From Diospyros lotus (lineage: Eukaryota > Streptophyta > Magnoliopsida > Ericales > Ebenaceae), in contig NC_068338.1 of NCBI RefSeq assembly GCF_014633365.1, positions 21,152,616 to 21,216,615 on the forward strand: a DNA stretch of 64,000 nt, given 5' to 3'. The position numbers and the translations under genes were made by a program. The notes below the pieces were generated by a model that worked only from the letters and a program-made list of their open reading frames with translations, was not told the DNA's origin and made no database searches. Shown one piece after another: positions 5,790 through 33,394 of this stretch. Within the stretch, counting starts at the first letter, position 1; every line of letters begins with the position of its first letter.

Positions 5790-6104
5790 TGTCATGACCC
5801 TAGGGTTTAGCTAGGGTTTAGGAAGGAATTTGGATAAGAATTAAGAGGAAGGGAGAGCAGAAAGGGAGGGAAGGAAGAATAGGACATAATTGAGGGAGAG
5901 AGAGAGAAAAGCCGTGGGAGAGTATTGAGAGAGGGAATTGAGATTCAAATCATTCATTCCTTTCTCTAACTACTCAAGCCTATTTATAGGCTTACAATTG
6001 AAGATGCTAACAACAACAACATAAAATGCAACTAATGCAACTAATAAGGAAAACACATGACATGTATTACTAATATATCCTTGGGGTTCCTTGGGGTCAT
6101 GACA
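5790..6104 (-). repeat. GagX 3' LTR
   Basis: It begins TGTCATGACCC and ends GGGGTCATGACA, so the LTR has an unusually long terminal inverted repeat of about 11 bp. A TATA-like palindrome (cctatttatagg) lies near 5970. The copy at 8859-9173 is nearly identical. Confidence 0.9.
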
Positions 6105-6121
6105 ATCCCCACCCCTTCAAA
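6105..6121 (-). other. GagX polypurine tract
   Basis: On the minus strand GAAGGGGTGGGGAT lies directly before the 3' LTR, at the expected place for the plus-strand primer. Confidence 0.75.
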
Positions 6122-6183
6122 CAATTCTTGTCCCCAAGAATTGATAGTTGTTGACCCCATTCCTCAACCGATTCCAGCCCTAG

Positions 6184-6924: not shown

Positions 6925-7728
6925 CTACAACTCTTGCTTTCTAAAAATGGCTTTCAAAGCGAGTTCCTGCAGCCTTGCTCTCTCGGCTGCCTCTTTCACA
7001 GTTGTCGGCATCATCATTCTGACCATTGACCTTAGTTTGTCTTTCAAACCACTAATAAATCTTGATACAAAATAGTGCTCTGTTAGAGTTGGCTGAGCAC
7101 TCCACAATAGGGACCTTAATTCCTCAAATCTATCCCAATAATTTGTCACCGATCCCTCCTGAATTAATTTGTTGAACTCCTTAGTCACCTTAATCATGTT
7201 CTTCTTCATCCCAAATTGGTCATGTAAATTTCCAGCGAGATCAGTCCACTTGATCTCCCCTTTCCTAGACATTGGAGTATGATTGGAAGTGTGGGAAGAT
7301 GAACATCTTACTTGAATTTCCGATTTCAAGGCCTGTAGTTCCCTTGCTTCTTGCAAGCCATAGGTCATAGGAAGGGTGCCATGTTTGGGCAAACTTGGAT
7401 CAGCAGCCCGGGGAGGAAAATCTGGTGACAGCATGTTGAACATGTTGTTGATCCGCTCGACATGTTGCTTCATCATCTTCTGATGCCTCTCCAAGTCTCT
7501 CTGCACTCTTTCTTGAGAGGTAGCTAGTCCCCAACGCATGTTTGCTTTGCTGGCTGCATTATCCTCCCAGCTGTGGGTCATTGCCTTCTGCGTGACCTTA
7601 TATTCCCTAGCTCCAAAATTCAGCTGTTGCTGCTGCCTTCGATAATCACTTGATCTTAGTCGCCACCAAGAACAATCTTCAGGTCCGATTCTTCTTCGTA
7701 GAACTTCTTGAATTTGCCGAAATTTCAA
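6925..7728 (-). CDS. GagX gag-like protein (retrotransposon gag domain)
   Basis: The open frame is 267 codons from the nearest upstream stop. The first ATG is at 7581-7579, giving about 218 residues. The N-terminal part is charged and coiled-coil-like (SQERVQRDLERHQKMMKQHVERI). The second half matches the capsid-like retrotransposon gag pattern: KWTDLAGNLHDQFG, then EFNKLIQEGSVTNYWDRFEELRSLL, then FISGLKDKLRSMVRMM and a KEAAERARLQE helix. No CCHC knuckle follows. The product would form the virus-like particle. The frame ends at TAG 6925-6927, after which the same frame stays open to 6184. Confidence 0.75.
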   Translation of the reverse strand: MKFRQIQEVLRRRIGPEDCSWWRLRSSDYRRQQQQLNFGAREYKVTQKAMTHSWEDNAASKANMRWGLATSQERVQRDLERHQKMMKQHVERINNMFNMLSPDFPPRAADPSLPKHGTLPMTYGLQEARELQALKSEIQVRCSSSHTSNHTPMSRKGEIKWTDLAGNLHDQFGMKKNMIKVTKEFNKLIQEGSVTNYWDRFEELRSLLWSAQPTLTEHYFVSRFISGLKDKLRSMVRMMMPTTVKEAAERARLQELALKAIFRKQEL

Positions 7729-8858
7729 GAATCACTGTCCAATCCATTTCGTCACCTGCTGTGGTTTGACCATCCCAATTCCAAGCCGCAAAGCTTGAGT
7801 AACGATGCAGTAGCTGAGAATCAGCTGCTGCAATTCTGCCTTCTAATAATTTGCTTCGTCTACTATTTCCGAACCCGACCGCTCCTGCCTTTCACCTCAA
7901 TCACATGCAATGAGTTTGCTGAAATCAAACTGATTTAAGGCTAGCCCAGTGGAGTCGGAATCGCTCGGCCACCGTGCATGGAAATACAAAATGTTGAACA
8001 AGACTAGCAGGAACGAGTCCCAGAATGATGCCAATCTCTGTAAAAACTTACTGTATATCGTCGGAATTCATTGCTCAACTCCCAAACCTACTGCCAAGGA
8101 TTGTGGCGCCTTCTCTACTCACCGAATCTAAGTAATTCTTGATTGCCACCCAATCACCATCCACTATCTCGCTTCTGAAGCACTTCCGCTGCGTAACTCC
8201 TCTTCCTATCCAGTTTAAGTTTGTCACTGAAATCAATTGCATATGGCCGCGCATGTAGATCCGATCCTCCCGTTCTGTATCAAATTCGTTGCGGCTCGGC
8301 TTCCTATTCTTCCGAATTCAATACCTCTAATCCGCAATTGAATTGCCGATCAGAGCCTACAGTCCGCAAGAACTTGTTTCTCACAGTCACCCTCCTGCTT
8401 TGTGTCCGTAGCCAAGACAGCCTTCAATTTCCGAACCTAACACTACGGTTTTGCCCATTGTCAAACTCGCTTGCGTCTTCTTGTCATCACTACAAATTCA
8501 AGACCGCTGGACTTACTTCCACGCCGTGCCTTAACCACTCGCCAATCACAGGGATCCGTAATCACCGAAATTTCACTTATCTCTGCCTTGGCTGACAATC
8601 GCTGAAATCTGCTTCACTTAGATCCATCGAGATCTGGATCTACTTCGCCTCCAATTTTGGACTTGATTAACTCAATCAAGTCAGCCGAAAATTTCCCCCA
8701 GACTGAACCGCACTCTGATGTTCAGCAATCGTTATTTCCTCTTCCACTTCACCCTAGTTTCGTCACTAGGACTCATGAAGCAGCCTAGAGTAGATTCTGC
8801 AGCCTAGTGTCTCGATTGATTGAAATCACAACCGAGGAACGACGTCTCTGATACCAAA
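7729..8858 (-). other. GagX leader between primer site and gag
   Basis: About 1.1 kb separates the 5' LTR from gag. It has no convincing gene. Open frames on the opposite strand here (7708-7938, 8221-8595) have no recognisable domains. Leaders of this length are common in plant gypsy elements and usually hold packaging signals. Confidence 0.6.
8846..8858 (-). other. GagX primer-binding site (tRNA-iMet type)
   Basis: Read on the minus strand, TTTGGTATCAGAG directly follows the 5' LTR end (...GGTCATGACA). The TGGTATCAGAG core is complementary to initiator tRNA-Met. Confidence 0.85.
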
Positions 8859-9173
8859 TGTCATGACCCTAGGGTTTAACTAGGGTTTAGGAAGGAATTT
8901 GGATAAGAATTAAGAGGAAGGGAGAGCAGAAAGGGAGGGAAGGAAGAATAGAACATAATTGAGGGAGAGAGAGAGAAAAGCCGTGGGAGAGTATTGAGAG
9001 AGGGAATTGAGATTCAAATCATTCATTCCTTTCTCTAACTACTCAAGCCTATTTATAGGCTTACAATTGAAGATGCTAACAACAACAACATAAAATGCAA
9101 CTAATGCAACTACTAAGGAAAACACATGACATGTATTACTAATATATCCTTGGCGTTCCTTGGGGTCATGACA
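8859..9173 (-). repeat. GagX 5' LTR
   Basis: Same length (315 bp) and nearly the same sequence as 5790-6104, with TGTCATGACC...GGTCATGACA ends. It drives transcription on the minus strand, opposite to ECM29. Confidence 0.9.
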
Positions 9174-9214
9174 GACCCCAAGAACAATTAAGTCCAGTAG
9201 AGCTCAATAGGGAG

Positions 9215-14533: not shown

Positions 14534-14538
14534 AGGAG

Positions 14539-15165
14539 GAGATTGCAAAATTAAGAAGTTTGTTGGGATCATTAGAGAAGAAAACTGGGATAGGTACTTG
14601 CACTCTCACCTTTATAGTTATGTCTTCCTCTCCTCATGTCCTTCATGCTTCGGATATAGCCCTTCCAAATGCCTGGATAATTGACTCAGGAGCCAAGATC
14701 ATATGACATGTTCTTCCCACAGATTTATCTCTTATACACCATGTCCTTGTACTAGGAAAATAACCATTGCAAATGGCTCGATAATAACTATGGCCGGACA
14801 AGGGGATGTCCTCATAAATGATCAACTCACCCTAAAAATGTTCTCGATGTGCCTAAGCTATTCACCAACCTTGTGTTAATCCAAAAACTCACCATAGATT
14901 CTAATTGCAATGTAATTTGTTATTCATCCTTTTGTCAGTTTTAAGAATAGGGCGCAAGGAGGATGATTGGACATGCTAGAGAGAGAGAGGTGGTCTTTAC
15001 TATTTTGAAGAACCTAGTGGACAGTTTAATAAAGAGAGAGTTTTCCCTCTATCATTCATTATTGAGTTGTCCATAAAGACAAGCTTTGGCTTCACCATCT
15101 TCATCTTAGTCATCCCTCTTTTAGTGTTCTTAAATTAATGTTTCCTTTATTGTTCAAAAGAAGTT
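14539..15165 (+). pseudogene. CopA protease and GAG-pre-integrase segment
   Basis: CopA resumes after CopB with the spacer before protease, then a protease motif WIIDSGA near 14674-14694 followed by an indel. Next come FISYTPCP- and GQGDVLIND-like segments and the LWLHHLHLSHPS-type zinc region. It reads with several frameshifts. About 100 bp that CopC and CopE have around CELAKHKR seem to be missing, and the segment ends at the CopC target aagtt. Confidence 0.7.
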
Positions 15166-15423
15166 TGGTAGAGGATCTCGAGATCCATATTCCCATATTT
15201 TCATATTTCCATATTCCTTTTCTAGGAGATCCTATCTCTATCTTGACAATTTCTTATAGGTTGTATTCTAGGTGTTTGTGTTTCCTAATTTCCAAAGGTT
15301 ATGGTTAGGGAACTGCCTAATTTAGAGATTAGTTTATGTTCTTCTCTTCATTGACCAACTATATATAATTGGGTAATTCTTACCCTAAGTGTAATAGATT
15401 GGTTTTACTAGTTACTCTTGACA
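15166..15423 (+). repeat. CopC 5' LTR
   Basis: It begins TGGTAGAGGATC and ends CTCTTGACA. It matches 24308-24548 (TGTTAGAGGATC...CTCTCGACA) with moderate divergence, consistent with an older insertion. Confidence 0.85.
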
Positions 15424-15437
15424 TAGTATCTGAGCCC
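15424..15437 (+). other. CopC primer-binding site, mutated
   Basis: TAGTATCTGAGCCC occupies the primer position. It differs at two bases from the iMet-type TGGTATCAGAGCCC of CopA. Confidence 0.75.
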
Positions 15438-15543
15438 TAGGTCCATATTCCTGGAATTGAGCACTGCCTTCAGTCTTTTTTGTTTGGTCGTAGCTAGTTT
15501 TGGCATCTAATCCACTTTAGTAGCATCCTAAAACCCTTGAACA

Positions 15544-16480
15544 ATGATAGACACAGTCAAATCCAGCAATACAACAAAGGTACCTTTTGTTGGAAGCAGT
15601 GTCACAACTTTGGGTGGGGAGTTGCAGAACATGTAGCCAACATATCGACTGAATGGAATGAACTATTTGAAGTGATCTCAATTAATCTGTACGTTTCTAA
15701 ATGGCAAAGGGAAGCTGAGTCATCTACTTGGAATCAGGCCTAAGAAGGATAATCCTACATATGCAGCCTAGGACGAAGAAGATTCATTGGTCATGTCTTG
15801 GCTATGGAACTCCATCCTTCTAGAGATCAATGACATGGTTATGTTCCTAAGCATTGTCAAGGAAATCTAGGATGTAGTTAAACTCATGTACTCCAAGGTC
15901 CATGATGCTACTCAAATTTATAAGATCAAGACAAAAGTGATGGCTACCAAGCAAGGATCTCGGTCAATCACCGAATATGCCAACCTCTTGCCAACATTGT
16001 GGCAAGAGTTGGACCACTATCAATACATTCAGATGAAATGTAGTGATGATGTAGCTATTCAAAAACAATTTGTTGAGAAAGAAAGAATTTATAATTTCCT
16101 TGCTAGCCTAAATCTAGAGTTTGATGTTGTAAGAGTTCAGATCCTTGGAAAGGAGGATCTACATTCTTTAAATGAAACAATTGCAATTGTGTGTGCAAAG
16201 GAAAGATGGAGGGGAGTGATGCTTGAGACTTCCTCTACAGACAACTCAACTCTTATAACTGTGAAGAGTCCTAGCTTAGACAAGCAATCTAGAGAGGATA
16301 AGAAGCCATTTGATTCATCAGAAATGAACAAGGACTCCTTATGGTGCAACTATTGCATGAAGCCCTGTCATACCATAGAGAAGTGTTGGAAGCTCCATGG
16401 TAAGCCTTCTAAGAATGGGCAACTAAGAGGACAAGGACTGGTTTATGTGGCTAGTAGCCAACAACCTACTGAAGGAAAAA
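15544..16480 (+). pseudogene. CopC gag
   Basis: The ATG at 15544 starts an N-terminus similar to CopA gag. Stops and a shift lead into the open body at 15886-16527: ITEYANLLPTLWQELDHYQYIQMKC, FLASLNLEFDVVRVQILGKED, then the knuckle CNYCMKPCHTIEKC (CX2CX4HX4C intact) near 16347-16388 and KLHGKPSKNGQ. It serves as the reference for the interrupted CopA gag. Confidence 0.85.
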
Positions 16481-16501
16481 CTCCAAGAATAGGCAAGTCC
16501 A

Positions 16502-17640
16502 GTGGAGCTCAACCGGGAAGAGATTGAAAAACTAAGAAGTTTGTTGGGGTCATTGGAGAAGAAACTTGGGACAAGTACTTGCACTCTAGCCTTTACAGGT
16601 ATGTCTTCCTCTTCTCATGCCTTTCATGCTTTGGATATAACCCTTTCTAATACCTGGATACTTGACTCAGGAGCCACATATCATATGATTTGTTCCTTCC
16701 ATAGATTTATATCCTATACACCATATCCCAGCACATGAAAAAAACCATAGCAGATGGATCAGTAACAATTGTGGCTGATCAAGGAGATGTCCTCATAAAC
16801 AGTCACCTCACCCCTTAAAATGTTCTCCATGTCCCTAAGCTTTGCACTAACCTCATGTCAATTTAAAAACTTACCATAGACTCCAATTGTATTGTCATTT
16901 TTCATTCATCCTTTTGTGAATTTCAGGAACAAGTCACGAGGAGAATGATTAGGCGTGCTAGAGAGAGAGATGGGCTTTACTATCTTGAAGATCTTAGTAG
17001 ACAAGTTAATAAAGGGAGAGTTTCCCCTCTATCATTCATAGTTGAGTCCTCCAAGTCCAATAAAGATAAGCTATGGCTTCATCACTTTCATCTTGGTCAT
17101 CCCTCTTTTAGGGTTCTTAAATTGATGTTTCCTTTATTGTTTAAAGGATTAGATGTTGAGGATTTCCGTTGTGATGTGTGTGAGCTTGCAAAACAAAAGA
17201 GAGTTTCATTCCCTATCACTAATAAAAGAAGTTCTCTTCCATTTACAATCATCCACAATGATATATGGGGTCCCTCAATTGTTCCTAATATTTTTTGGAG
17301 CTCAATGGTTTGTCTCCTTTGTTGATGACTGCACTCGTGTGATTTGGTTATACCTTTTGAAAACCAAATTTGAGGTGTGCACCATTTTTCCAATCTTTTT
17401 CAATATAGTTAGAACTCAATTCAGTGTTGAAATAAAAATATTTCGTTCTAATAATGCCAAAGAGTAGTTCAATCAGTCTTTGTCATCCTTTTTTCACGAA
17501 AAGGGCATAATTCATGAATCTTCTTGTGTCCATACTCCTCAGCAAAATAGGGTGGTTGAGAGAAAGAATGGTCACCTTCTAGCTATTACAAGAGATCTCA
17601 TAATTTAGAAGAATGTCCTAAAACAATATTGGGGAAAGGT
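16502..17640 (+). pseudogene. CopC protease and integrase
   Basis: Protease WILDSGATYHM (about 16656) has Tyr where relatives have Asp or Asn after the DSGA motif. It is followed by FISYTPYPST, a stop, then GLYYLEDLSRQ, LWLHHFHLGHPS and CELAKQKR at 16975-17210. Integrase core pieces are FVSFVDDCTRVIWLYL (17310) and, after a TAG at 17465-17467, [19 protein letters not shown] (17535-17590). Frameshifts occur near 17290 and after 17640. Confidence 0.8.
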
Positions 17641-17682
17641 TGTAAGCCACTCACCTTATCAACCGATTACCCTTAAGGAGTT

Positions 17683-18765
17683 TTGATTCCCATAGTCCAA
17701 TCCAACTCCTCACCAAATTCTTTCCTGGGTTCGATGCCTTCAATGGTCTTGCCCCCAAAGTTTTTGGTTGCCTATCTTTTGTCCATATACACACTCCACA
17801 TAGGGGGAAACTTGATCCCCGTGCACTTAAATGTATCTTTTTTGGGTATTCTTCCACTCAAAAGGGATATAAGTGTTATCATCCACTTGCTAAGAAGTTT
17901 CTTGTGTTAGCTAATGTCACCTTTGTGGAAGATAATTCCTATTTAGATCGTCCTTATCTTCATGGGGAGACTTCCTTCTTGGAAGACAAGGACATAGATC
18001 TCTTTCTTCTCGACTTTCCTTCCTCTTCAATTCCTTTGGTTTCTAACGCATAGGACTCACAAGACATGATATAGGGGGAGCAACCACCAACTTCATCTTG
18101 TCCATTACAGGTGGTATTCTAGAAGGAAAGTGCCTGCTCCTCAACCTATACAGGCTACATTATCTGGTCCTGGTCCTGGTCCTGGTATTACCACAGTAAC
18201 TACCATTCCCACTCTTGGAATTGAACTTGTCACTAACTCTGATCCAAATGACCTTGATCTTCCTATTTTCATCAAAAAGGGAACAAGAACTTGTACCAAA
18301 CACCCTCTACACTTGTTCATGTCCTATACAAACCTGTCTCCTAAACACATCTTTTCTCACTAGCCTAAACACAATTCCCATACCTAAGACTTTTTCTAAA
18401 GCAATAGGCAATGAGAATTGGAGGAATGCCATGGAGGTAGAGATGGCAATACTGGAAAAAGTCAAACATGGGAGTTGGTGAAACTACCAAAGGGGAAGAA
18501 CCCAATAGGATGCAAATGGATGTTCACAATGAAGTATAGATCAGATGAGACATTAGTATAGATCAGACGAGACATTAGAAAGGTACAAAGCAAAATTAGT
18601 TGCTAGGGGATATATACAAACATATGGGGTGGATTATCTTGAGACATTTGCTCCAGTAGCTAAAATGAACACTGTAAGAGTGTTATTATCTTTGGCTGCC
18701 AACCTAGGCTGGAAATTGCAACAGTTTGATATCGAGAATGCATTCTTACATGGTGACGTATATGA
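17683..18765 (+). pseudogene. CopC integrase tail and 5' part of reverse transcriptase
   Basis: Integrase C-terminus (FVHIHTPHRGKLDPRALKC-type) is followed by the variable linker, the DPNDLDLPIFIKKGTRTCTKHP segment and the RT N-terminus ([33 protein letters not shown]). The last copia-like residues are DIENAFLHGD at about 18727-18758; then homology stops and ECM29 intron begins. A 22-bp tandem duplication lies at 18534-18577. Confidence 0.75.
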
Positions 18766-18889
18766 GTTAAACAAATGATTTGAATAACTTTTTAGGTGAT
18801 ATGAACTCTATTACTATTAAATTTGTAGGTAACTCTCCAACCAGCTTTACAGACTAACATAATTCAAAACCTTATTGACATGATTTCAG

Positions 18890-19057
18890 GAGGCATTTAC
18901 TCACCTATTAGGTGAGCAAAATGATCTCACACAGGAGCTGGCATCCCAAGGACTGAGTATTGTATATGAACTTGGCAATGCATCTATGAAGAAAAATTTA
19001 GTAAATGCACTGGTCGGCACACTAACTGGTTCAGGAAAAAGGAAAAGAGCTGTCAAG
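18890..19057 (+). CDS. ECM29: ECM29 exon (first in window)
   Basis: This exon encodes 56 residues, EAFTHLLGEQNDLTQELASQGLS-type sequence followed by IVYELGNASMKK and ALVGTLTGSGKRKRAVK. I recognise it as plant ECM29, a large HEAT-repeat protein that binds the 26S proteasome and acts as adaptor and assembly checkpoint. The acceptor is TTTCAG|GAG and the donor AAG|GTGAGC. The phase is 0 at both ends. It starts only about 125 bp after CopC RT homology ends, and the preceding exon is not visible in the window. Confidence 0.93.
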
Positions 19058-19188
19058 GTGAGCACCAACTCCTATATCATTTTCTCATATGTATTCTGCT
19101 CTGACTTTGGCTGTCCACATAAAAAGAAAACAGAATTGAAACAATTAATAAAAGATCTCAGTTTTTAAAACTTCATTCATCTGCTTAG

Positions 19189-19482
19189 CTTGTAGAAGAT
19201 TCAGAGGTATTCCAAGAAGGCACTGTTGGTGAAAGTCCCAGTGGAGGAAAACTTGGCACTTATAAGGAGCTTTGCAATCTGGCAAATGACATGGGGCAAC
19301 CAGACTTAATTTATAAGTTCATGGATTTGGCTAATTATCAAGCTTCTTTAAATTCCAAGAGGGGTGCTGCTTTTGGTTTTTCTAAGATAGCCAAGCAAGC
19401 AGGGGATGCTCTACAACCTCACCTTCATTTATTGATTCCAAGGCTTGTCCGTTACCAATATGATCCTGATAAAAATGTGCAG
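19189..19482 (+). CDS. ECM29: ECM29 exon (second in window)
   Basis: 98 residues, phase 0 at both ends: LVEDSEVFQEGTVGESPSGGK, YKELCNLANDMGQPDLIYKF, MDLANYQASLNSKRGAAFGF, SKIAKQAGDALQPHLHLLIP and RLVRYQYDPDKNVQ. This is a highly conserved ECM29 HEAT segment with no stop or indel. Acceptor GCTTAG|CTT, donor CAG|GTATAC. It is joined to the previous exon by a 131-bp intron, a normal plant size. Confidence 0.95.
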
Positions 19483-19689
19483 GTATACATTTCTGTGTTC
19501 TTTATAGTAAGGTATATATTGATCAGAATATAAAGTGTGGTTTCTTTTTGTGTTTTGCCAATATTTGATTCACTGCATTCGGTATGTGCAGTTCTTTTTA
19601 CTTTTCTTTTTTTGGTACGGAAAAGTCTGGCAACAAAATTTAATAAATACTTTTATTCTGTTCTTATTGCTTCTAATCCTTTGCTTTAG

Positions 19690-19866
19690 GATGCGATGGC
19701 CCACATCTGGAAATCACTGGTGGCAGACTCTAAGAGAACCATCGATGAACACTTTGACCTTATTATTGAGGATTTATTAATACAATGTGGATCCAGGCTG
19801 TGGCGTTCGCGTGAATCTTCTTGTCTTGCTTTAGCAGATATTATCCAAGGACGGAAATTTGATCAG
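19690..19866 (+). CDS. ECM29: ECM29 exon (third in window)
   Basis: 59 residues: DAMAHIWKSLVADSKRTIDE, HFDLIIEDLLIQCGSRLWRS and RESSCLALADIIQGRKFDQ. Acceptor TTTTAG|GAT, donor CAG|GTTGGC, phase 0. If the next intron were retained, translation would stop after five more codons (TAG at 19882-19884). The next exon, starting GTTGGAAAGC, is 26.1 kb away. Confidence 0.95.
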
Positions 19867-20557
19867 GTTGGCTTTGTTTTGTAGAGTGAGACAGTTTTAT
19901 ATTTCCAAAATGTTTAATTAGTTATCATTTTAATCTGTTCACCTACTGGAAGGCATAACCTGACAAACTGTTGTAACAGCTCATCTAGAGCTTTGATACC
20001 ACAACTTGTTGCTTCGTGAGATTTCTTTTTTTTTTTTCTTTTTCTTTTTTTACTTTACCCCTCGGTACCATAACCTGTTACAACCCCACACCCTTTTCTC
20101 TTGCCTTGGCTGAATATCATCCTCCAGTGGATGATGGAACAATAGATAACGTGCATGGGAAGCTATTGTCCCCATTGTCTAGCCGTTGGGTGTGTACATG
20201 TGGCACAAGTGTGGCTTAGTAGTCCCTCTTCTATTCTTGTTGTGCATGGTGTGAATCCATTTCCTTTCTCCCTCTTTGGCTCTTTTTGCATCTTTAATCA
20301 ACCTCCAAAAGTGGCTTTCCCACCATCAGTCAACCTGAGTTATTGTAGTAGGAAGTCGACCCCATATTTGATTTTGTCCCTCTATAGTCTAGGTCTTGAA
20401 CTTTTTGCCTTAAACAGTTGACCTCCGATTGCTTGTAGTCAACCTCCACAATTGACTGGTCATGTTGTGTGAACACCCTGAATCCTCACCCAAGTTTTAA
20501 CAAGTTTTATACCCAAGATCTTCTCAATAGACTACCAATGTGAGATTGGGTTATAAC
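19867..20557 (+). other. ECM29 intron sequence between exon 3 and the hAT-like element
   Basis: No gene. It is a T-rich plant intron (a long T tract near 20025-20050) with no element I can name. Its end at 20557 is the left edge of the hAT-like element. Confidence 0.6.
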
Positions 20558-20569
20558 CAGTGTTGTTAA

Positions 20570-22417
20570 TGAAAGTGAAGCAAGATCGCTACCGGGCAAG
20601 CAGCGTAGTTCAAAAATTTTGAACCTTACCCCGATCCCAGCGACTGGATCAACGTCGAAATTATAACATTCACAAACAAAATAAAATAAATCTAACCTTT
20701 AGATTTTTAAGTCGTTCGCAGATTCGAGCCGTCCAAGCGTCCGGCCTCTAACTTGTGATATGCAGCGCACGTCCGTTAGCGAGGAGAGTGAAATGGGAGT
20801 GCTAGCTCCTTCTCCTAACAAGGCTTGTGAATGGACCGGAGAAGAACGGATTTTCAACTCTTGAAAACCATAAAATAAAAGCTTAATTTGGGCATCCCAT
20901 AAAGGGCTATTTATAGAGGAACAACCTCCTAGGGTTTTCTAAACCCTAATAGACATGGATTGGGGTAGCCCATTAATCCTAGTTCAACTAGAACCTTATG
21001 TGGGCTAATCTTAGTCCAACTAGAAATTAAAGTGGCCCAAATTCATTTATAAAATATTTGGCCCAAATCTAATTTAAGTCTAAATATTTAATATTTGGCC
21101 CAAAGCTAATTTAGCCCAAATATAATATTTATTATTTAATATTTGACTCAAATCTAATTTAGCCCAAATATTTAATTTAATTTAATATTTGGCCTAAGTA
21201 CTTTATTTAGCCCAAGTATTAAATTAAGCCCAAATTATTAAATTAGAAACTCCTTTCTAGTTTAATCAATTGTTATTTTAGGAAACTCTTTCCTTTATGA
21301 CGACCCCTCGTCATATCAATGTCATTACATCTATTTATTCTTTTCCCGTGAGAACCTACGACGGCACAACTTCTTGCTGAAGTGTCTCACTTAACCATAC
21401 GTCCGCTCTCCTGGTTTAAGCCAGGGACCATGCCTATTGCGTATGACTCATTAGGCTTCCAAATATGTTGGCAATGTGTCGATACGAACACATAAGACAA
21501 GATTGGCCTCTAGCAAGGCATCATGCCTACCCAATTATTCAGAAGAATTCATAATCCGCAAATAACCTTTCACGAGCATGGTTACCGTGTAATTCGATCA
21601 TCTCGTCAATGTATCTTATGTGATCTCAAGTCTGGCAATGTGTTGCTTGATTATGATCACATGAGTTTTTCTTCGGTCATCTGGATAGCTTCACTTATTA
21701 GAAAGTGAATCAATAACTCCTTATCGATCTCTTTCACCATGGTCATGAATTTAAAGTAAATATCCACCAAAGGCGCTTTAGATACATCATCCTCTATCAA
21801 GGGATAGATAAGTCCCATCTTGGTTATGCACCCATCTCCATGAGCCTCACGATATGCCCAACAATCGCCCACTTGCAGCCTTTATCTAGGCCCATCGAAA
21901 CGATGTCAAAGCATACCAATCTTCTTTTGAAATGACCATGATAACCTCAAGTCAAAGGATTAGTTACACCCATCTTGTATGAGAATACCATCAATATATA
22001 ACCAAAATGGAATCTCATGGCGAGTCATGTCCAGTGACACGTTCTCCAACATTGGTCACCTATATACTTATCTAGGCATCTCCATGTCTATGGGTGTGAG
22101 ACCCCCATTGCTATCACATAACAAAAACATAGCACATACAAGTCTTACTGCAATTGTCAATGTTCATTCTTGACATTGCTACAACTTGGGACATTTAATG
22201 ATGTCGAGAAACTGTGATACATCATCTCACATCTTTACATATTAATCATAGCATACATCATATGGACTTCTATCTAGTTTCATCCGATCATTACATTAAT
22301 AACAAGAAACTAATAGAACGACTTCTTGTAGAATTAAATAACTCTTTATAAATATGATTGCAAATGTCAATGTACAATTTGTCCAATCTGATTAGGTCTA
22401 GAGCACCTACACTAACA
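20570..22417 (-). repeat. Solo LTR T1 (1848 bp) inside the hAT-like element
   Basis: It is flanked by an exact TSD gttaa (20565-20569, 22418-22422), which cuts the hAT terminal region. Read on the minus strand it begins TGTTAGTGTAGGTGC and ends CTTCACTTTCA. The start resembles T2 at 36522-43656 (TGTTAGTGTTGGTGC), so both are members of one long-LTR family. It is noncoding; small open frames inside lack domains. Confidence 0.8.
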
Positions 22418-22954
22418 GTTAAAAGCCCAAGGCACACTAAGGTACAAAGGGTCTTGGAGCCTAAGGCGCAAGGCGAGGCGTGCGCCTGGCAAGTGCAAGG
22501 TGCATGCTGACCAAGAAGAAAGAAAAATATACTTCTTAATTGAATAATATGTCATAAAATAGATCCTAATCACATATCAACATTTATGTTATCAAAAAAT
22601 TCAAGAATTCAACATATATTAAATAAATCACAACATAAACATACTTCATGACATACCTGTAAATTTCAGCAAATTAAATCCCACCATATTTCAACAAATC
22701 AGAAAAAGGAATCGACATTTAAACACCACAAATAAAAAAAAAAAAAATAGTATTTGACATATATAATTAAAAGACAACAAAATAGTTCTAAAAATGTCAT
22801 TAAACTTAAGCAAAACCCACCAAAAAATGTTAGTTTTAAGACTTTGAAGTCAACAGTCAACTTAAAAGAAAAAGTTAAATGATCAACCTTAAACCATTAA
22901 TAGGTCCTAAATGGCTAAATTTTAATTAGGATTAACTAGATATACATAATAAAC

Positions 22955-23335
22955 TAGAAGAAGAATAAGAAAGAAGAAGAAGAAGAAGAAGGAGAATGAT
23001 AGCAGCAATGTAAGATTGAGAAGAAGAAGAAAAAGAAACAGGCTAGCAGTAGTAGCAGTGTAAGAAGAAGAAGAAGAAGAAGAAGTTTAGCAGCAGCGGA
23101 AGAAGAAGAAGAAGGAGGATAGCAGAAGAAGAAGAAGGAGCAAGAGGATAGCAACAACGTAAGAAGCAGCCGTGTAAGAAGAAGAAGAAGAAGGAGAAGG
23201 ATAGCAGCAATGTAAGATTGAGAAGCAACCGCGTAATAAGAAGAAGAAGAAGAAGCAACAAGGATTGCCAAAAAAGAAGCAGGCTAGCAGCTACCAGCAG
23301 TGTAAGAAGAAGAAAAAGAAGAGAAGAATCAGGGA
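22955..23335 (+). repeat. GAA/AGC purine-rich low-complexity tract
   Basis: Imperfect GAAGAA repeats are punctuated by agcagc/tagcag units within the hAT-like element. It produces poly-Leu/Ser open frames on the opposite strand, which are artefacts. Confidence 0.85.
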
Positions 23336-23782
23336 TTGTCGATATGTTACCTTAGCCTGGAGAAGCAATGAAGCACCTCAATTAGAACTGGAAAACTAGA
23401 GAAGAACTTGAGGAGTTGCAGTTGCTGCGTTGCGTGAGAGAAGAGAGTGTTGCGTAAGAGAGTTGGAGCCTTGGAGGTGTAGTCTCTTGGCCTTCTAGAA
23501 ATCAGATGAGCTGGAGCATGATATTTTTGAGTTTTGTTGACTTTTCAATATTGTATTTTATTATTTTCTTTCTCTTTAAGTTTTAACAGAAAAATGTTTA
23601 AAAAATAAAACATGCTGAAAAATCAGCTGCGCCTGATGGATGTGTGCCTGAGGGAGGTGCGCCTAAAGGGCCTAGGCACGCCTGGCTGGATCTCGCCTCG
23701 CCTAGGTATGGCAAGGCGAGATGGCTGTGCCTTGAAGGGCCTTGCGCCTAGGCGCGCCTTTAACAACACTGAGTAAAAGTCA

Positions 23783-24300
23783 TATTGTTTAAGAAAGGGG
23801 GAGAGTTGTCTCTTGAGGCCTATACTGATGCTAACTATGCAAGGTCGGTTGTTGATAGAAGATCAACATCGGGGTATTACACATTTGAAGTAGCTAGACA
23901 CTACTTCAAATGTGACTTGGAGAAGTAAGAAACAAAGTGTTGTAGCCCGATCAAGTGTTGAAGCAGAGTTCAGATCAATGGCCCTGCGAATATGTGAATT
24001 ACTGTGGATCAAGATACTCTTAGAAGACCTAAAACTCGAGTGGAAAGAACCTATGAGACTCTACTGTGATAATAAATAAGCTATTAATATTGTTCATAAT
24101 CCGTACAACATGACCAGACAAAGCATGTTGAAGTAGCTAGACACTTCATAAAAGAGAAACTAGATAGTGGCTTGATTTGCACCCCATTTGTGCCTACTGG
24201 CGATCAACTTGCAGATATTCTTACAAAGGGACTTCCTAGCCATGTGTGTCAGAGATTATTGAGCAAGATTGGAATGCAAGACATTTACTCACAATCTTGA
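23783..24300 (+). pseudogene. CopC RNase H
   Basis: It starts at ILFKKGGELSLEAYTDANYA and continues with SVVDRRSTSGYYTF, a local insertion that forms a hairpin (23881-23913), then WRSKKQSVVARSSVEAEFRSM, YCDNK, HVEVARHFIKEKLDSGLIC and LADILTKGLPSHVC to the stop at 24298-24300. A stop inside the CDNK motif region and a one-base loss near 24105 break the frame. Confidence 0.8.
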
Positions 24301-24307
24301 GGGGGAG
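24297..24307 (+). other. CopC polypurine tract
   Basis: TTGAGGGGGAG lies between the RNase H stop and the TGTTAGAGG start of the 3' LTR. Confidence 0.85.
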
Positions 24308-24548
24308 TGTTAGAGGATCCCGAGATCCATATTTCCATACTCCTTTTCTAGGAGATCTTATCTCTATCTTGACTATATTTTACTGGCTGTATTCTAGGTG
24401 CATGTGTTTCCTAATTTCTGTAGGTTATGGTTAGGCAATTGCCTAATTTAGAGATTAGTTTATGATCTTCTCTTCATTAACCAACTATATATAATTGGGT
24501 AATTCTACCCTAAGTGAAATAGGTTGGTTTTACTAGTTACTCTCGACA
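24308..24548 (+). repeat. CopC 3' LTR
   Basis: TGTTAGAGGATCCCGAG to CTCTCGACA, followed by the TSD copy aagtt and the resumed CopA integrase. Confidence 0.9.
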
Positions 24549-25414
24549 AAGTTCTCTTCTATTTGCAATTATTTACAGGAACATATGTGGCTCTTCAACT
24601 GTTCCTAATATTTCTAGAGCCCAATGGTTTATCTCTTTTATTGATGACTGCACTCGTGTAACTTGCTTATACCTTTTAAAAACCAAATTTGAGGTGTGCA
24701 CACTTTTTTCAATCTTCTACAATATGGTCAAAATCCAATTCGGTGTCAAAAGTAAAAGGATTTCGTTATGATAATGCAAAATATTATTTCAATCAATCTT
24801 TATCATCCTTATTTCAAGAAAAATGCATAATTCATGAGTCCTCTTGTGTTAATATACCACAACAAAACAGGGTGGCCGAAAGAAAAAATGGTCATCTCCT
24901 AGCTATCACAAGAGCCCTTCTACTTCAAAAGAATGTCCCAAAATTGTATTGGGGAGAAGCAGTTTTGACAGCCACTCACCTCATAAACAAACTACTCTCA
25001 CGGAGCCTAGATTCCCACAATTCAATACAACTCCTCACAAAATTCTTCCCAAGTTTCAATGCCTCCAATGGGCTGCTCCCAAAAGTCTTTGGTTGCATAT
25101 CTTTCATCCATATACACACTCAACATAGGGGCAAACTTGATCCATGTACTCTCAAATGCATCTTTGTTGGTTATTCTTCCACCCAAAAGTGGTATAAGTG
25201 TTATCATCCTCCCATAAAGAAGTTTCTTGTGTCCGTTGATGTCACCTTTATTGAAAATAATTCATATTTTGATCATACTTATCTTCAGGGGGAGACTTCA
25301 TTCTTAGAAGACAAGGACAATGATTTCTTTCTCCTTGAATTCCTTTCTTTGAGCCAATATTCGATTCCTATTCCATCACTTGAGTTCCAGTCATCCATTC
25401 AAAGTGACTCATAG
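24549..25414 (+). pseudogene. CopA integrase
   Basis: CopA resumes with GPSTVPNIS-type sequence (degraded) and FISFIDDCTRVTCLYLLK. The open stretch 24689-25414 holds FRYDNAKYYFNQSLSS, the core motif [57 protein letters not shown] and CIFVGYSSTQKWYKC. The catalytic Glu region is present. The left end joins exactly to the CopC TSD. Confidence 0.85.
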
Positions 25415-26757
25415 GAAATGATGAAGGGGGAGCAACCACCAACATCGACTTGTCCACTACAGATGTATTCAAGAAGAAAAACACCAGCCACTTAACCTAG
25501 CAAGCTCCATCATCCAAACAGGGTCCTAATCCTGATGCCACTGAGGTAACCACTATGCCCAATCCTAGTGTAATTGAACCCAATCAGAGTGATCTTGACA
25601 TTCCTATTGCTATCAAAAAAGGAACAAGAACCTTTACCAAACATCCCCTATACTTGTTCATGCCCTATACAAGCCTGTCTCCTAAACACAAAGCCTTCCT
25701 CACCAGCCTAAACACAATTCCCATACCCAAGACCTTATCCGAAGCATTAGGTAATGAGAATTGGAGGGATGCTATGAAGACAGAGATGGAAGTACTTGAG
25801 AAAAATCAAACATGAGAATTGGTGAAATTATTGAAGGGAAGAACCTAGTGGGATGCAAATGAGTATTCATAGTGAAGTATAGACCAGACATGTCGTTAGA
25901 AAGGTACAAAGCAAGATTAGTTGCTAAGGGATATACACAAGCATATGGAGTGGATTATATTAAGACATTTGCTCCAGTGGCTAAAATGAACATTGTGAGA
26001 ATGCTATTATCTTTGGCTACCAACTTAGGCTGGAAATTGCAATAGTTTGATGTCAAGACGCGTTCTTACATGGAGACCTTGAGGAGGAGATCTATATGGA
26101 AGTATCGTCTGACTTTGAATCAAAGACAAGGGAAGATGTGGTGTGCAAGTTGAAAAAGGCTCTATATGGATTGAAGCAATTACCGAGGCATGGTTTGGGC
26201 GATTCACCAAAGTAATGTGTGGTATGGGGTACAAACAGAGTAGGGTGATCATACTCTATTTGTAAACCACGTAGTCTCAAGGGGAGTGACTGCATTGCTG
26301 GTATATGTGGATGATATCATAGTGACTAGAGATGGTATGGAAGGAATGGAAAAATTAAAAAGTTGTTTGGTCGAAGAATTTGAGATTAAGGAGCTAGGCA
26401 GGTTGAAATATTTTCTGAGTATTGAGCTTGCACACTCTAGGTAGGGTATCTTCATATCCCAACAAAAATACATCCTAGACTTGTTGACTGGAACTAGTAG
26501 CCTGGGAAGTAAAGCTGTTGATACACCCATAGAGCCTAATCACCAACTTGGAGATGTCCCAGAAGATGGGGCAGTGTATAAAGGGTCCTATCAAAGGCTT
26601 GTTGGAACTTGGAGGACTTATTTACCTGTCACATACAAGACCAGACATAGCTTATGCTGTGAGTGCGGTAAGTGAGTTCATGCATAATCCTAAAGAAACA
26701 CATCTCAAAGCAATACACAAGATTCTGCAAAATATTTAAAGGGGACATCAGGCAAAG
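25415..26757 (+). pseudogene. CopA reverse transcriptase
   Basis: The linker IPIAIKKGTRTFTKHP and RT N-terminus ALGNENWRDAMKTEMEVLEKN run to a stop at 25813-25815. Further stops and shifts follow, but [16 protein letters not shown], the [17 protein letters not shown] segment and the catalytic YVDDIIVT (about 26299-26325) are still readable. It ends [20 protein letters not shown]. It is complete in extent, so it shows exactly which RT part CopC lost. Confidence 0.8.
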
Positions 26758-26762
26758 GAATA

Positions 26763-27269
26763 TTGTTTAAGAAAAAGGAAGAGTTGTCTCTTGAGGCTTA
26801 TATTAATGTAGACTATGCAGGGTTGATTGTCGACAGAAGATCAACATTAGGGCATTCCACATTTCTAAGAGGTGATCTTGTGGCCTGGAGAAGTAAGAAA
26901 CAAAATGTTATAGCCCAATCAAGGGCAGAAGCTGAGCTCAGATCAATGGCTCGGGGAATATATGAATTACTATGGCTCAAGATAATCTTGGAAGATCTAA
27001 AAATCAAGTGGAAGGAACCTATTAGGCTCTATTGTGATAATAAGTCAACTATCAACATTGTTCATAATCTGGTACATCATGATCGGACAAAACATGTTGA
27101 AGTTGATAGACACTTTATAAAAGAGAAACTTGATAGTAGCCTAATTTGCACCCCATTTGTGTCCACCGGTGATCAATTTGCCGACATTCTCACAAAAGGA
27201 CTTCCTAGCACCGTGTGTCAAAGATTAATAAGCAAGATTGCAATGCAAGGCATTCACTCATCATCTTGA
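26763..27269 (+). pseudogene. CopA RNase H
   Basis: An open frame of 168 codons: LEAYINVDYAGLIVDRRS, WRSKKQNVIAQSRAEAELRSM, LYCDNKSTINIVHN, KHVEVDRHFIKEKLDSSLIC and FADILTKGLPSTVC to the stop at 27267-27269. The first catalytic Asp of the usual TDADYAG motif has become Asn-Val (INVDYAG). Confidence 0.85.
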
Positions 27270-27276
27270 GGGGAAG

Positions 27277-27536
27277 TATTAGAATATACAATTTTCTTTC
27301 CTAGGAAACTATATTTTCGGTTGATTATATCACAGGCTGTTAGGGATTTGATTCAGTTTATTCTTTCCATTATTTGTTTCCTAATTTCAGTAGACTCGAT
27401 TATAGGAAATTAGGTTTAGGGAATTTCCGATTTTAGAGATTAGCTTTCTGTTCTATTCTTTATCTACCAACTGTATATATTTGGGGAATGCTTCTCTAAG
27501 AGAATATAGATTGGATTACTGGTTTACTTTTGAACA
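27277..27536 (+). repeat. CopA 3' LTR
   Basis: It follows a polypurine tract (CTTGAGGGGAAG). It begins TATTAGAA and ends TTTTGAACA, before the TSD copy ataac. Confidence 0.85.
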
Positions 27537-27541
27537 ATAAC

Positions 27542-27807
27542 CATAAGTATGCACTTACCTCAAGTTAAGACTTAGTTTCTTCAAGCTTCCTTTAGCTTTC
27601 TAGCAGACCTTTCTTATTTCTCAGCTCCTTTCTCGCTTCCCAGCATAACTTCCTTACATCCTTCAACTTTCTCACTCTAAAGCTCTTTCTTATGGAGATC
27701 TTCCCACTCTCATTTCAGTTTTCTCTTGAAATAAAAAAGGTCTGGCCTATTCATAGGCAAGGGAAACAGCCTACTTCTCTGCTGAGGCAACTGAGTGCAT
27801 GGCAGCC
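27542..27807 (-). repeat. LTR-like fragment between CopA and CopD
   Basis: No gene. It contains ctattcataggcaagg, a TATA-like stretch if read on the minus strand, and CT-rich sequence. It is probably the middle of the same gypsy-type LTR as 2567-2768 and 32852-33394. Confidence 0.4.
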
Positions 27808-28066
27808 TGTAAAGAAACAACTAGGGCAGAAATAAAACAGAGAGAATGAAAGATAGGACTCAGCTGATAGAAGAATAATCAAGCCTCAATAGATTCGGAA
27901 GATGAGCTGCCTTTAAATAGACAGCTCAACCGCTTATAACAAGATACACATAGGCAGCCGCTAACTGAAAAAGGAACGAACTGAAAACTAACTGAAAATA
28001 CAAAGAGCAATATACATATAGCTAACTGAGAGAAAGAACATGAACATGATATTTAAACTACTCACA
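27808..28066 (-). repeat. CopD 3' LTR
   Basis: On the minus strand it starts TGTGAGTAGTTTAAATATC right after GAGGGGAAG (polypurine tract, about 28067-28076) and ends CTTTACA. Confidence 0.92.
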
Positions 28067-29727
28067 CTTCCCCTCAAATCAGACTCCATAGAAGTTGAGT
28101 GACCAAGTGTGGAGAATGTAGCAGCAGCGGTAGAACCAGCATGGACAGGAGACAACACCAAACCAAGTCTTGCGTGTAGAAACTTAAACCTGTCTCTAGG
28201 CAGTCCTTTTGTAAGAACATCAACCACTTGACTAGTTGTAGGAATATATCGAACCTCTACTTCACCATTTTCCACCTTCTCGCGAACAAAGTGAACATCA
28301 ACTTCAATATGTTTGGTTCGAGAATGAAAAACTGGATTCTCGGACATACTTTTGGCAGCTAAGTTATCACTCCACACAATAGGAACAGCAGCACACGGAT
28401 AGCCTAGCTCTTGAAACAATGTTTTCAGCCACATCAACTCAGTCACACCCAAAGCAATAGCGCGATATTCAGCCTCTCCTACAGACCTAGCAACAACAGT
28501 CTGTTTCTTGGAACCCCAAATAATGAGATTCTTGCCAAAATAAACACAAAAGCCACTGGTAGAACGCCGAGTCACTTTGCAGCCAGCATGGTCGGCATCC
28601 GTGTACACTTGTAAGGACAAATCATCTTGAGATGGAGAGAAAACCAAACCCAAGCCAACTGTGCCCTTTAGGTATCGAAGAAGACGCTTACAAGCCAACC
28701 AATGCTGCACCTTAGGACAAGACAAAAATTGACTAAGCTTGTTAACTGTAAAAGCTATGTCCGGGCGAGTATATGTCAAGTATTGCAGTGAGCCAATGAG
28801 AGTTCTATACAAAGAAGGATTGAAAATTAGTTCTCCTTCATCTGTTAAAGAAACTCCAGCAGCCAAAGGAGTACCACATGGCTTGCCATCATGCATAACA
28901 GCCTTTTTCAGTAAGTCAAGAACATACCTAGTCTGAGTTAAGTAGATACCACTGCTGTCTCTATAAGTTTCAAAACCCAAAAAATAGTTCACCGAACCAA
29001 GAGTTTTAAGAGCAAAATGTGTGTCCAATGCTCTAATACATGATTTAAGTGCATCATTATCAGAACCAGTGAGTAGAATATCATCAACATAGATCAACAC
29101 ATAAAGCACACAACTAGCAGTCTTCTTAACAAACAAAGATGCATCTGACATAGCACGAATAAATCCCCATGACTGTAATGCTGTCCTCAGCTTCATATAC
29201 CAGGCTCGAGGAGCTTGTTTGAGGCCATATAAAGACTTTTGCAACTTGCAAACATGTGTAGGGAACTGAGAATTAACAAATCCCTCAGGTTGAACCATAT
29301 AAACTGCTTCATTTAAGTCTCTATTGAGAAAAGTATTATTGACATCAAATTGTTGGATGTCCCAACCATAGGTAACTGCCAAAGCAAACAAAACACGAAT
29401 GGTTGGTGCCTTAACAACCGGACTAAAGGTTTCAGCATAATCTACACCCGGGGTTTGATGAAATCCCTTAGCAACCAGCCTAGCTTTGTACTTAATAATA
29501 GAACCATCAGCATTATATTTCACTTTAAACACCCACTTACAGCCAACCAGATTCATATCCTTAGACATGGGAACCAAATCCCAAGTATGATTTTTCTGTA
29601 AGGCTGTATATTCTTCATGCATGGCCTGAACCCATCGTGAGTCTAAAAGGGCCTCACTAACAGAATTAGGTTCAACAGAACTCACTAAGGCATGAGGAGA
29701 AGGAGTAACTAACTGTTGAGACTTGGA
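27988..29727 (-). pseudogene. CopD reverse transcriptase and RNase H
   Basis: Open from 29685 to 27988. The stop lies just inside the LTR. Motifs in order: [65 protein letters not shown], the catalytic LIYVDDILLTGSD, YLTYTRPDIAFTVNKLSQF, then RNase H LQVYTDADHAGCKVTRRSTS, KQTVVARSVGEAEYRAIA, VWSDNLAAKSM and VDVLTKGLPRDRF. The catalytic residues look intact. Upstream, a TGA at 29727-29729 separates it from integrase in the same frame. Confidence 0.9.
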
Positions 29728-30700
29728 TCAGGTGACCATAGGGTGAAGAGAGGGAGCAAAAATAGGTTTGGAGGTCTTAGGTTTAGACGGAGGTGCAGAT
29801 GAAGAAGCTGGATTAGATGGCAACTGTTGTAAGTGTTCTACAACCAGAGAGGAGACATTTATGTGACTATTAGACTGTGTGGGAACCGGAGCTGATGCAG
29901 TCGAGGGACACCATGAAGAATTAGAGCGAGTGAAAATAGGTTCTAGAAATGCAGTAGAATATCCGTGAGAAACAGGTGAGGAAGACAATGAAGAAGGAGA
30001 AAACAAAGAAGGATAAGGAAAATCACTAGGATTAAAATGGACATGCCGAGACACATATACTCTCCCAAATGAATGCAAGCACTTGTAACCAACTTGAGTA
30101 TGACTATAGCCAAGAAAAACACATTTGGCTGAATGAAAATCAAACTTATGTTGATTATATGGACAAAGAAAGGGAAAATAAGCACAACCAAAAGGTTGAA
30201 GAATGAAGTAATTAGGTTGTTTATTATATAGCAGTTCAAATGGTGTCAAAGACTTGAGGGAAGAAGAAGGAAGCAAGTTAATAAGATGAACTGCTGTTTG
30301 AAAGGACTCCACCCAAAACCGAAGAGGCATACAAGCACGAGACAACAAAGTTAATCCCATTTCAGCGATGTGTCTGTGTTTACGTTCAGCGACACCATTC
30401 TGCTGATGAGTATGTGGACAAGTAAATCTAGATTGGATGCCATGAGTTCAAAGATAAGGCAAGAAAGCTCGAAATTCCCCTCCATTATCAGTTTGCAAAG
30501 CTTTAAGCTTAGTGTTGTATTGAAGTTCTGCAAACTTATGGAAGACAGTGAATGCAGACAAAGCATCTGATTTAAGCTTTAGGGGATATATCCAAGTATA
30601 CCGAGTGTATGCATCAACAAAAATGATGTAGTACCTATAGCCTTCTAGAGACAAAATGGGGGCTGGTCCCCAGAGATCAGAATAAATTAATTCCAAGGGT
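29728..30700 (-). pseudogene. CopD integrase
   Basis: Core motifs ELIYSDLWGPAP, FVDAYTRYTWIYPL, LQTDNGGEFRAFLPYL, then a TGA, then HQQNGVAERKHRHIAEMGLTLL, FGCAYFPFLCPYN and KCVFLGYSHTQVGYKC. The Asp, Asp and Glu of the core are all present. The two parts are in one frame, broken only by the TGA at about 30448. The downstream linker ends HPMVT followed by TGA where relatives have Arg, consistent with a CGA to TGA change. Confidence 0.88.
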
Positions 30701-31460
30701 TTAACTGCAGTAATGTCATGACTTGAAAAAGGAAGCTAGCTTAACTTTCCAATTTTGCAAGAATCACAAAAGGACAAATCAGAACCTGAACAAGAAATTC
30801 CCATTTTATTCAACACAAACTTGAGTACATTCATTGAAGGATGTCCCAGCTTATCATGCCATTGTTGACAAATTTGAGTGTGTTGCTGAACAGCATTTAC
30901 AACATGTGGGAACTCATGACAAAATGAGTTTGACCTTGTACACATAGCTAGTTTATTACATGTTTTTGAAGGAAAAACAGAAGAAACTAAAGAAGTGTCT
31001 AGAGATGAAGCAGGAATGTTGGCACCAGCAGAACAAGATGCTGGAGTCAAACGATAAAGCCCATCCTTAAGGTGTCCCCGAAGCAGCACCGGTCCGAAAG
31101 CCTTGTCCTTAATCAAACAAACATTGGAATCAAATTCAGCTACCACATTATAGTCATGAGTAAGCTGAGACACACTAATCAAATTTTTCTTCATACTAGG
31201 AACATGAAGAACATTAGATAATGGAAGGACTAAATTTGGTTGAGATTGCAAATAATTGGTGCCAACATGATTAATAGGAAGTTGCTTACCATTGCCAACA
31301 GCAACTTTGTCGCCACCAGTGTAGGGAGCATGTAAAGAGAGGTTGTTAAGGTTGGAGGTGATGTGATTAGTTGCTCCAGAGTCAACAAACCATTTTGAAT
31401 CGGGAAGGGAAGGAGAAGCTGTAAAGTTGTTAGGTGTGAAAGAATTAGAAGAACTACCTT
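30701..31460 (-). pseudogene. CopD protease and GAG-pre-integrase region
   Basis: Protease motif WFVDSGATNHIT (about 31375-31410), then SNVLHVPSMKKNLISVSQ, the zinc segment QWHDKLGHPSMNVLKFVL and FCDSCKIGKLS, followed by a TAG in the frame (30736-30738). A further TAA precedes protease near 31458. Confidence 0.85.
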
Positions 31461-32555
31461 AGTGAGTGCCTTGTGTTGAAGCCATATTATTAGTGTAGTT
31501 CCCGTTAGAGTCACTAAAGGAGGCCATGTAAGCTCTTGAAGGAACTTGATTCATAAACTGAGGCTGAGTAATAAACTGTGTTGGATTACCACCATCAGAT
31601 CTGCCAAAACTTGTGTTTGATGGCCGCTGGAATGTTTTATCAAATCGATGATAACAGCGATCCACAAAGTGGCCTGGCTTACCACACAACTAACAGTAAA
31701 TTCTCCTATTTGAATTCCTCCCTCGACCTCCTCTTCCTCCTCTATTACCATATCCATTTCCTCTCTGAGACGAACCTCCTCGAGTGCTACTGAAATTATA
31801 ATTCTGAGCAGAAGGCATTGAAGCCACATTGACATGCATGGTAGAGACCGAATCAAAATTGGCAGTGGAGTTTTTGACTGAAAGTCTTTGTTCATGCATC
31901 AATAACAAATATTGGACCTTTTCCAAATCGACCTCATCCATTAATAAGGCTCACAACTGTCTCATACTCCTGATCTAAACCATTAAGAATTGTAAGCAAC
32001 AATTCTTTATCATTAAGTGGTTCACCTATTGCTGCCAAAGTGTGTCCGACTGTTTTAATCTTGAGAATGAAATCATTTATAGACAGAGTCCTTTTTCATA
32101 GATCTTAGCTGCTGTTTTAATTGAAAGGATTTGGCTATAGTTTAGCGAGAGTACAAACTTTCTAGAATACTCCATACCTCAACCGATGACTCACTATGAA
32201 TCACCTGAGCAAGGACCTCTTGATCGATTGTTGAGAACAGCCATCCCAATAGAAGCTGATCGGATCGAATCCAGCTCAAGTAGGCTGGATTAACTTCCGT
32301 TTCTTCACCATCGGAAGGAGCCAGAAACTTCATAGGAGGTGTCGTTTTATTGAGAAACGACACTAGATCGAATGCACGCACCGTAGCAAGAACTTGTGCC
32401 TTCCAGAAAATATAATTGCTGAAATTGAGTTTAATCGGAATGAAATTCAACGCCTTACCAACAGACGAGAAGTCCAACTGAGATCCAGTCGATAATGAAG
32501 AAGAAGAACGAGGAGAGGGAGACGAGGGAGAATCGAGAACATGATTGGAGGCCAT
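31461..32555 (-). pseudogene. CopD gag
   Basis: It starts at ATG 32555 shortly after the primer site. The N-terminal half is open to 32142: NFIPIKLNFSNYIFWKAQVL, SWIRSDQLLLGWLFSTIDQEVLAQV. It is then disrupted near 32140-31950 and resumes with VDLEKVQYLLLMHEQRL, a basic Gly/Arg-rich tract (RGGRGGRGRNSNRR) and a zinc knuckle CGKPGHFVDRC whose first Cys is interrupted by a stop (TAG at about 31690). Confidence 0.85.
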
Positions 32556-32585
32556 CGACTATTTCGAACCGAAGCTCTGATACCA

Positions 32586-32846
32586 TGTAAAGAAACAACT
32601 AGGACAGAAATAAAATAGAGAGAATGAAAGATAGGACTCAGCTGATAGAAGAATAATCAAGCCTCAATAGATTCGGAAGATGAGCTGCCTTTAAATAGAC
32701 AGCTCAACCGCTTATAACAAGATACACATAGGCAGCCGCTAACTGAAAAAGGAACGAACTGAAAACTAACTGAAAATACAAAGAGCAATATACATATAGC
32801 TAACTGAGAGAAAGAACATGAACATGATATTTAAACTACTCTAACA
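32586..32846 (-). repeat. CopD 5' LTR and adjoining primer site
   Basis: The LTR reads TGTTAGAGTAG...CTTTACA on the minus strand. It is followed by TGGTATCAGAGC (positions 32574-32585), complementary to initiator tRNA-Met. Confidence 0.92.
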
Positions 32847-32851
32847 CAGCC

Positions 32852-33394
32852 TGGCTGCCACTTGGCTCTTGTTTGGTGGCATTTTCCTGCAGAGACAGCC
32901 AGCTATCTGCTTCAACTGAAGCACCTGCCACCCTTTTGTCTTTTTTGTTGCCACCTAGCCATAGATGCAAGTGTTCGTGTAGGTAGGAAGACACCTCACC
33001 TGTATGCTTCAGCAATTCAGCCACCTCACCATGTTTCTAAAATCTTCTACAGATTCCCTATAGCTGGAACCTCACTAGTTCTTGCTTAATTAACCATAAT
33101 CCCCTTATTTAATCCTTAATCCAACTTCCTCAATTCTTAACCAAAATTACTAATTTCCATATCATTGGAATCCTCTTTTTATGCCTAATAACATATTAAA
33201 AATGCAGATATTTATCCCTTAATCTAGTCCCCAAAAACTGATTTTAAATTCAGCTGCTTACCTGAGGTTTTTCACTTGCTTGGCTTGCCACCTTAAATAT
33301 TTTGTTTCAGAAACTGTCTAATAATAGCTCCTCATGTTTTGAAGTGTCAGGTACCCTCTTCCTATGTTTATTAATAAATTTATGGGGTGTCACA
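32852..33394 (-). repeat. Right part of a gypsy-type LTR interrupted by CopD
   Basis: No gene. Its right end (ATAAATTTATGGGGTGTCACA) reads TGTGACACCCCATAAA on the minus strand, a typical gypsy LTR start. The left continuation is across CopD at 27542-27807. Confidence 0.5.

Follow-up and report, generated by a model that had tools for sequence, protein, structure and literature searches.

The ECM29 gene and its exons X, Y and Z

The window analysed here is a 64,000-nucleotide stretch of the Diospyros lotus genome (C1:21,152,616-21,216,615; window position 1 is its first letter) that lies within the gene ECM29. Three exons of the gene, called X, Y and Z and together XYZ, are enclosed there in a nest of retrotransposons. 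When the 630-Mb genome assembly was searched with an 1820-residue protein, ECM29 matched a sole locus of about 122 kb, C1:21,105,773-21,228,019 (30 matches; 26 of 35 candidates scored), and finer mapping of the protein showed the exon pieces to be collinear and on one strand. Exon W, which precedes X, ends at C1:21,145,973, about 25.5 kb upstream of exon X. On the plus strand of the window follow exon X (18890-19057, 168 nt), exon Y (19189-19482, 294 nt) and exon Z (19690-19866, 177 nt). The exon directly after Z, exon D, occupies 46007-46270 of the same strand, as the original prediction from the sequence had proposed. The exact translation of X, Y, Z and D is included in isoform X2 of D. lotus LOC127810408 (P0079). 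Of 554 protein matches 120 were listed, and this entry, a cluster of three sequences, is the only one of these named for D. lotus; it contains XYZ once. Several introns of the gene contain retroelement sequence.

The 977-bp segment carrying XYZ has one match in the genome, namely itself (one candidate; a strongly diverged copy could escape this search). No second copy was found in the 50 kb upstream, and elsewhere in the 134-kb gene region there was neither a remnant of XYZ, its intron flanks or the hAT element described below nor a second copy of that hAT.

X, Y and Z have lengths that are multiples of three, are open in frame and carry splice signals. Their constraint was judged from 83 proteins of 1700-1850 residues, drawn from the same 120 listed matches. 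Columns counted as conserved had at least 97% agreement among the 82 relatives, and D. lotus departs from them at 3 of 131 columns in XYZ. The corresponding figures are 6 of 119 for the next four exons, 5 of 213 for the upstream part and 1 of 50 for the C-terminal end, so XYZ is not enriched in changes relative to the remainder of ECM29. Five other focal species have 0-2 changes at the conserved columns of XYZ; D. lotus is faster than these species in most ECM29 segments, XYZ among them. Judged by their open frames, their splice sites and a constraint like that of the other exons, XYZ are probably working exons of ECM29. A search of solved structures gave matches to transportin-1 only, and these were weak.

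The retrotransposon nest around the exons

XYZ lie within the copia element CopC, which lies within another, CopA, which in turn lies within R0, a dispersed repeat of about 1.6 kb. The original prediction had placed the exons in CopC and CopC in CopA; this arrangement holds, and is strengthened by R0 as a further layer. All parts of the nest are on the plus strand. CopC begins with its 5' long terminal repeat (LTR) at 15166-15423 and runs through the left part of its internal region, as far as the reverse transcriptase (15424-18766). Beyond the block that contains the exons it resumes with the right part, which carries RNase H (23772-24307), and ends with the 3' LTR (24308-24548). Its target-site duplication (TSD) is a perfect 5 bp, AAGTT/AAGTT, as had been noted before. 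The internal CopA sequence to the left of CopC (14535-15165) ends with one AAGTT and that to the right (24549-27276) begins with the other, and none of 40 other matches covers the left CopA/CopC junction with at least 20 bases on each side. CopA itself extends from a 5' LTR at 2769-3020 to a 3' LTR at 27277-27536 and has the near-perfect TSD described earlier, GTAAC/ATAAC, of which GTAAC closes the left-hand R0 piece at 2768 and ATAAC follows the 3' LTR. The Kimura two-parameter (K2P) divergence between the LTRs is 0.118 for CopA, 0.098 for CopC and 0.087 for CopB, which fits the nesting order. Another young LTR element is nested in CopA at 5790-9180, with LTRs 98% alike and minus-strand open frames at 6184-7731.

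The outermost layer was recognised from the empty site of CopA. When 250 bp from each flank were joined, with the target duplication kept once, this query had at least 43 matches, among them the window's own two halves and at least 19 others that span the join, with 417 or more of the 500 bp covered at 72-87% identity. Because these matches are uninterrupted, the outer flanks of CopA are adjacent halves of one repeat, R0, which is unbroken and in order in the two copies that were fetched. At this locus R0 is split four ways. The pieces lie at window positions -3474 to -2948 (upstream of the first letter), about 2476-2774, about 27538-27807, which in other genomic copies is joined to the preceding piece, and 32852-33394, the last of them. 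The putative target duplication of R0, AAAGG and AACAG, agrees at 3/5 positions. The interruptions of R0 other than CopA are an LTR element at about -2947 to 2474, with GGCAG on both sides and LTR copies 93% alike, and a very young minus-strand copia element at 27808-32841, with an LTR K2P divergence of 0.008 and a perfect CAGCC target duplication.

Since simple insertion cannot put older exons inside younger elements, XYZ must either have moved or have been duplicated with the loss of one copy.

The joints of the block and the hAT element

The block inside CopC consists of the tail of an ECM29 intron (18767-18889), the exons with their introns, the head of the following intron (19867-20557), and a transposon (20558-23771). 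The intron parts are on the plus strand, and no strand is assigned to the transposon. About 0.68 kb of CopC is missing at the site of the block, in agreement with an earlier estimate of about 0.7 kb. At the left joint, 38 of the 40 other matches break off somewhere from 18753 to 18766, where homology to CopC ceases. Of the remaining two, one stops at 18720 and the other continues to 18777, the only match that extends into the intron tail. This joint lacks a left hAT end.

The intron head leads into what appears to be an old LTR remnant, the last 57 bp of which are part of a dispersed repeat, and terminates in GTTATAAC at the transposon end. The transposon has both ends intact, with 12-bp terminal inverted repeats (TIRs), CAGTGTTGTTAA and TTAACAACACTG, close variants of which occur in its relatives. 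From its TIRs and the TSD length of its family it is classed as an element of hAT type. It contains an LTR-like insert at 20570-22417 with the target duplication GTTAA. Both this insert and the remnant in the intron head are presumed, from their ends and motifs, to be LTR-derived.

The hAT family is abundant, with at least 54 matches listed when the best 40 of 575 candidates were scored. From these, 15 copies were fetched, chosen for closely spaced halves; 12 have both ends, and in three the left end was not found. The fetched relatives are about 5-20% divergent. In the 12 complete relatives the flanking 8-mers match at 8/8 positions in eight, at 7/8 in three and at 5/8 in one. The hAT of the window, in contrast, is flanked by GTTATAAC at its left end and by AGTAAAAG at its right end, and these agree at only 4/8 positions. 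Because its flanks mismatch in spite of belonging to a family that makes 8-bp TSDs, this hAT is taken to mark the joint of a rearrangement. Its left end adjoins the ECM29 intron side and its right end adjoins CopC. Relatives approach the right joint from both sides, but none of the 39 crosses it: the 17 of the hAT have their ends at 23771-23776, and the 22 of CopC begin at 23766-23782.

On the left side of the hAT, the repeat continues elsewhere in the genome past the point where the hAT starts, reading AAAC in 4 of 11 copies and AAAT in 3 of 11, and the stretches downstream are alike in at least six copies. Since it reads on in this way, the hAT interrupts the left-hand repeat. The same continuation rules out the alternative that the left end was produced by insertion of an LTR element two bases inside the hAT. 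A search for the continuation of this repeat, which would have located the old site, gave nothing convincing; the copies are about 70-78% alike, and sensitivity was poor.

Origin of the arrangement

The segment bearing XYZ was probably duplicated beside the hAT, with later deletions leaving a single copy inside CopC. The hAT would mark the right-hand joint of the duplication, and two deletions would then have left one copy of XYZ, within CopC. The nest could have been either upstream or downstream of XYZ in the ancestral order, both being equally workable, and the joint may have come from reversed-ends transposition, from exchange between two hATs or from end joining at a hAT end, with the same outcome. 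Tandem duplication by unequal exchange, followed by deletions, had been one of the options offered in the original prediction, and it is the best supported of them in view of the hAT with mismatched flanks at the right joint, but the second copy that it entails was not seen.

Several observations count against a duplication. There is no trace in the region of a second copy of XYZ or of the other hAT flank, the duplicated stage is unobserved, and the history requires at least three events. One of the 12 hAT relatives, that with flanks alike at 5/8 positions, likewise lacks a matching TSD. In addition, the last six bases of the hAT (23766-23771, ACACTG) resemble those that CopC itself has at this place: in each of the ten CopC relatives read, which have ACAC or a similar sequence exactly at the hAT end, 3-5 of 6 positions are the same. 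The right joint may therefore have arisen by microhomology end joining rather than by insertion of a hAT end, and the fact that hAT and CopC meet exactly speaks less strongly for a transposase than it seems to. The hAT is longer than 3 kb, and a breakpoint exactly at its terminus would still point to the hAT end, for example to a transposase cut.

The resemblance at the right joint also suits template switching or end joining during gap repair, in which a break in CopC would have been filled by copying the gene's own XYZ region, the original XYZ being lost later. The right joint would have formed via the hAT or microhomology, and the left one by joining of an end to CopC near 18766. A single event would account for both junctions and for the missing CopC sequence, and movement of genes by break repair with copied DNA is described for plants (Wicker et al., 2010, as cited in PMC3503983). 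There, too, host gene DNA is copied into a break, and the gene seems to have moved once the original is lost, whereas in D. lotus the exons move within one gene and keep their order. The form in which copied filler coexists with original exons upstream, as put forward in the original prediction, is refuted because XYZ is matched once, the ECM29 matches form one collinear locus and no second copy lies upstream. A further event is then needed to remove the original exons. Gap repair is a possible but doubtful alternative to duplication. Composite transposition of hAT elements (macrotransposition) is unlikely. The outer ends of two hATs would have moved XYZ as cargo into CopC, after which the left hAT and the middle of CopC would have been deleted. 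This would explain why no base is missing from the hAT end that adjoins the resumed CopC sequence, requires no duplicate stage, consistent with the single copy of XYZ, and has a precedent in the maize macrotransposition cited in PMC4270019 (Huang and Dooner, 2008). However, the left joint has no left hAT end, the likeness of the hAT's terminal bases to the adjoining CopC bases is not predicted by transposition and fits less well with it, and the gene would briefly have been without these exons. If this were the true history, the gene would have outlived the cut-and-paste of its own coding exons since these moved only a short way and kept their order.

Misassembly, another of the options offered earlier, would have placed XYZ in CopC by a wrong join through repeats, in which the region is rich. 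It is improbable, marginally more so than macrotransposition. The region contains no Ns; the right join falls at the end of a hAT whose fetched relatives are about 5-20% divergent and of which the 134-kb gene region yielded no second copy; and XYZ is found nowhere else. At the left joint CopC adjoins DNA with almost no other match, so there is no long shared repeat to mislead an assembler. It is very improbable indeed that two independent pairs of CopA and CopC lie in flanking introns and mimic one nest. The copia families of CopA and CopC are abundant in the genome, which would favour such a coincidence, but the TSD of CopC is perfect and none of the 40 other matches crosses the left CopA/CopC junction. 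That the halves might stem from different insertions, a doubt raised together with the original prediction, is contradicted by the finding that the CopA flanks are adjacent halves of one repeat.

No published description of a gene whose own exons had been transferred into a nested retrotransposon inside it was found in a search of titles and abstract openings, whose scope excluded most subscription journals. Retrotransposons can capture host genes, as in the case of maize Bs1, with host exons inside an LTR element. Unlike such captures, the D. lotus block keeps its introns, and no copy other than the enclosed one was found; capture of a reverse-transcribed spliced transcript is ruled out by the kept introns. 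Duplication beside the hAT resembles the tandem direct duplications made in maize by reversed-ends transposition of Ac/Ds and dhAT elements, which are marked by a hAT at the junction, one of its flanks being old and the other not matching (PMC3744419). Neighbouring host DNA is duplicated there, as it would have been in the event proposed here. A junction hAT with a non-matching flank is present in D. lotus, but the two tandem copies of the segment that also characterise these duplications are not: XYZ occurs once, no remnant is seen, and a later loss is required. D. lotus differs further in that its one exon copy lies in nested retrotransposons, that no partner hAT is seen, and that the CopC-like ACAC at the joint makes end joining possible. 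The composite insertions that follow alternative hAT transposition are alike in that hAT ends shift nearby gene DNA a short way and broken ends are joined (PMC4270019); the D. lotus left junction differs in being without a second hAT end.

In Quercus suber, a 2042-residue ECM29 model (P0078) contains one segment twice (starting at residues 706 and 994), with the region of X and some of Y in it. Possibly exons were duplicated there, as in the intermediate stage proposed here, but the model may also be misannotated, since Q. suber has models of 1816 residues as well. Two Tanacetum models (P0068 and P0075) fuse ECM29 pieces to retroelement domains and may represent fragments near or inside retroelements, or merged models.

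The ECM29 locus of D. lotus is a natural case in which exons changed neighbours while the gene was unchanged, the position of the exons being younger than the transposons that surround them. Exons inside a transposon need not imply capture or a pseudogene. The case raises the question of how often exons in long introns are reshuffled unnoticed by duplication and later deletion, the joints being occupied by DNA transposons. Several Diospyros genomes are reported as published, so that the intermediate stages are directly testable.

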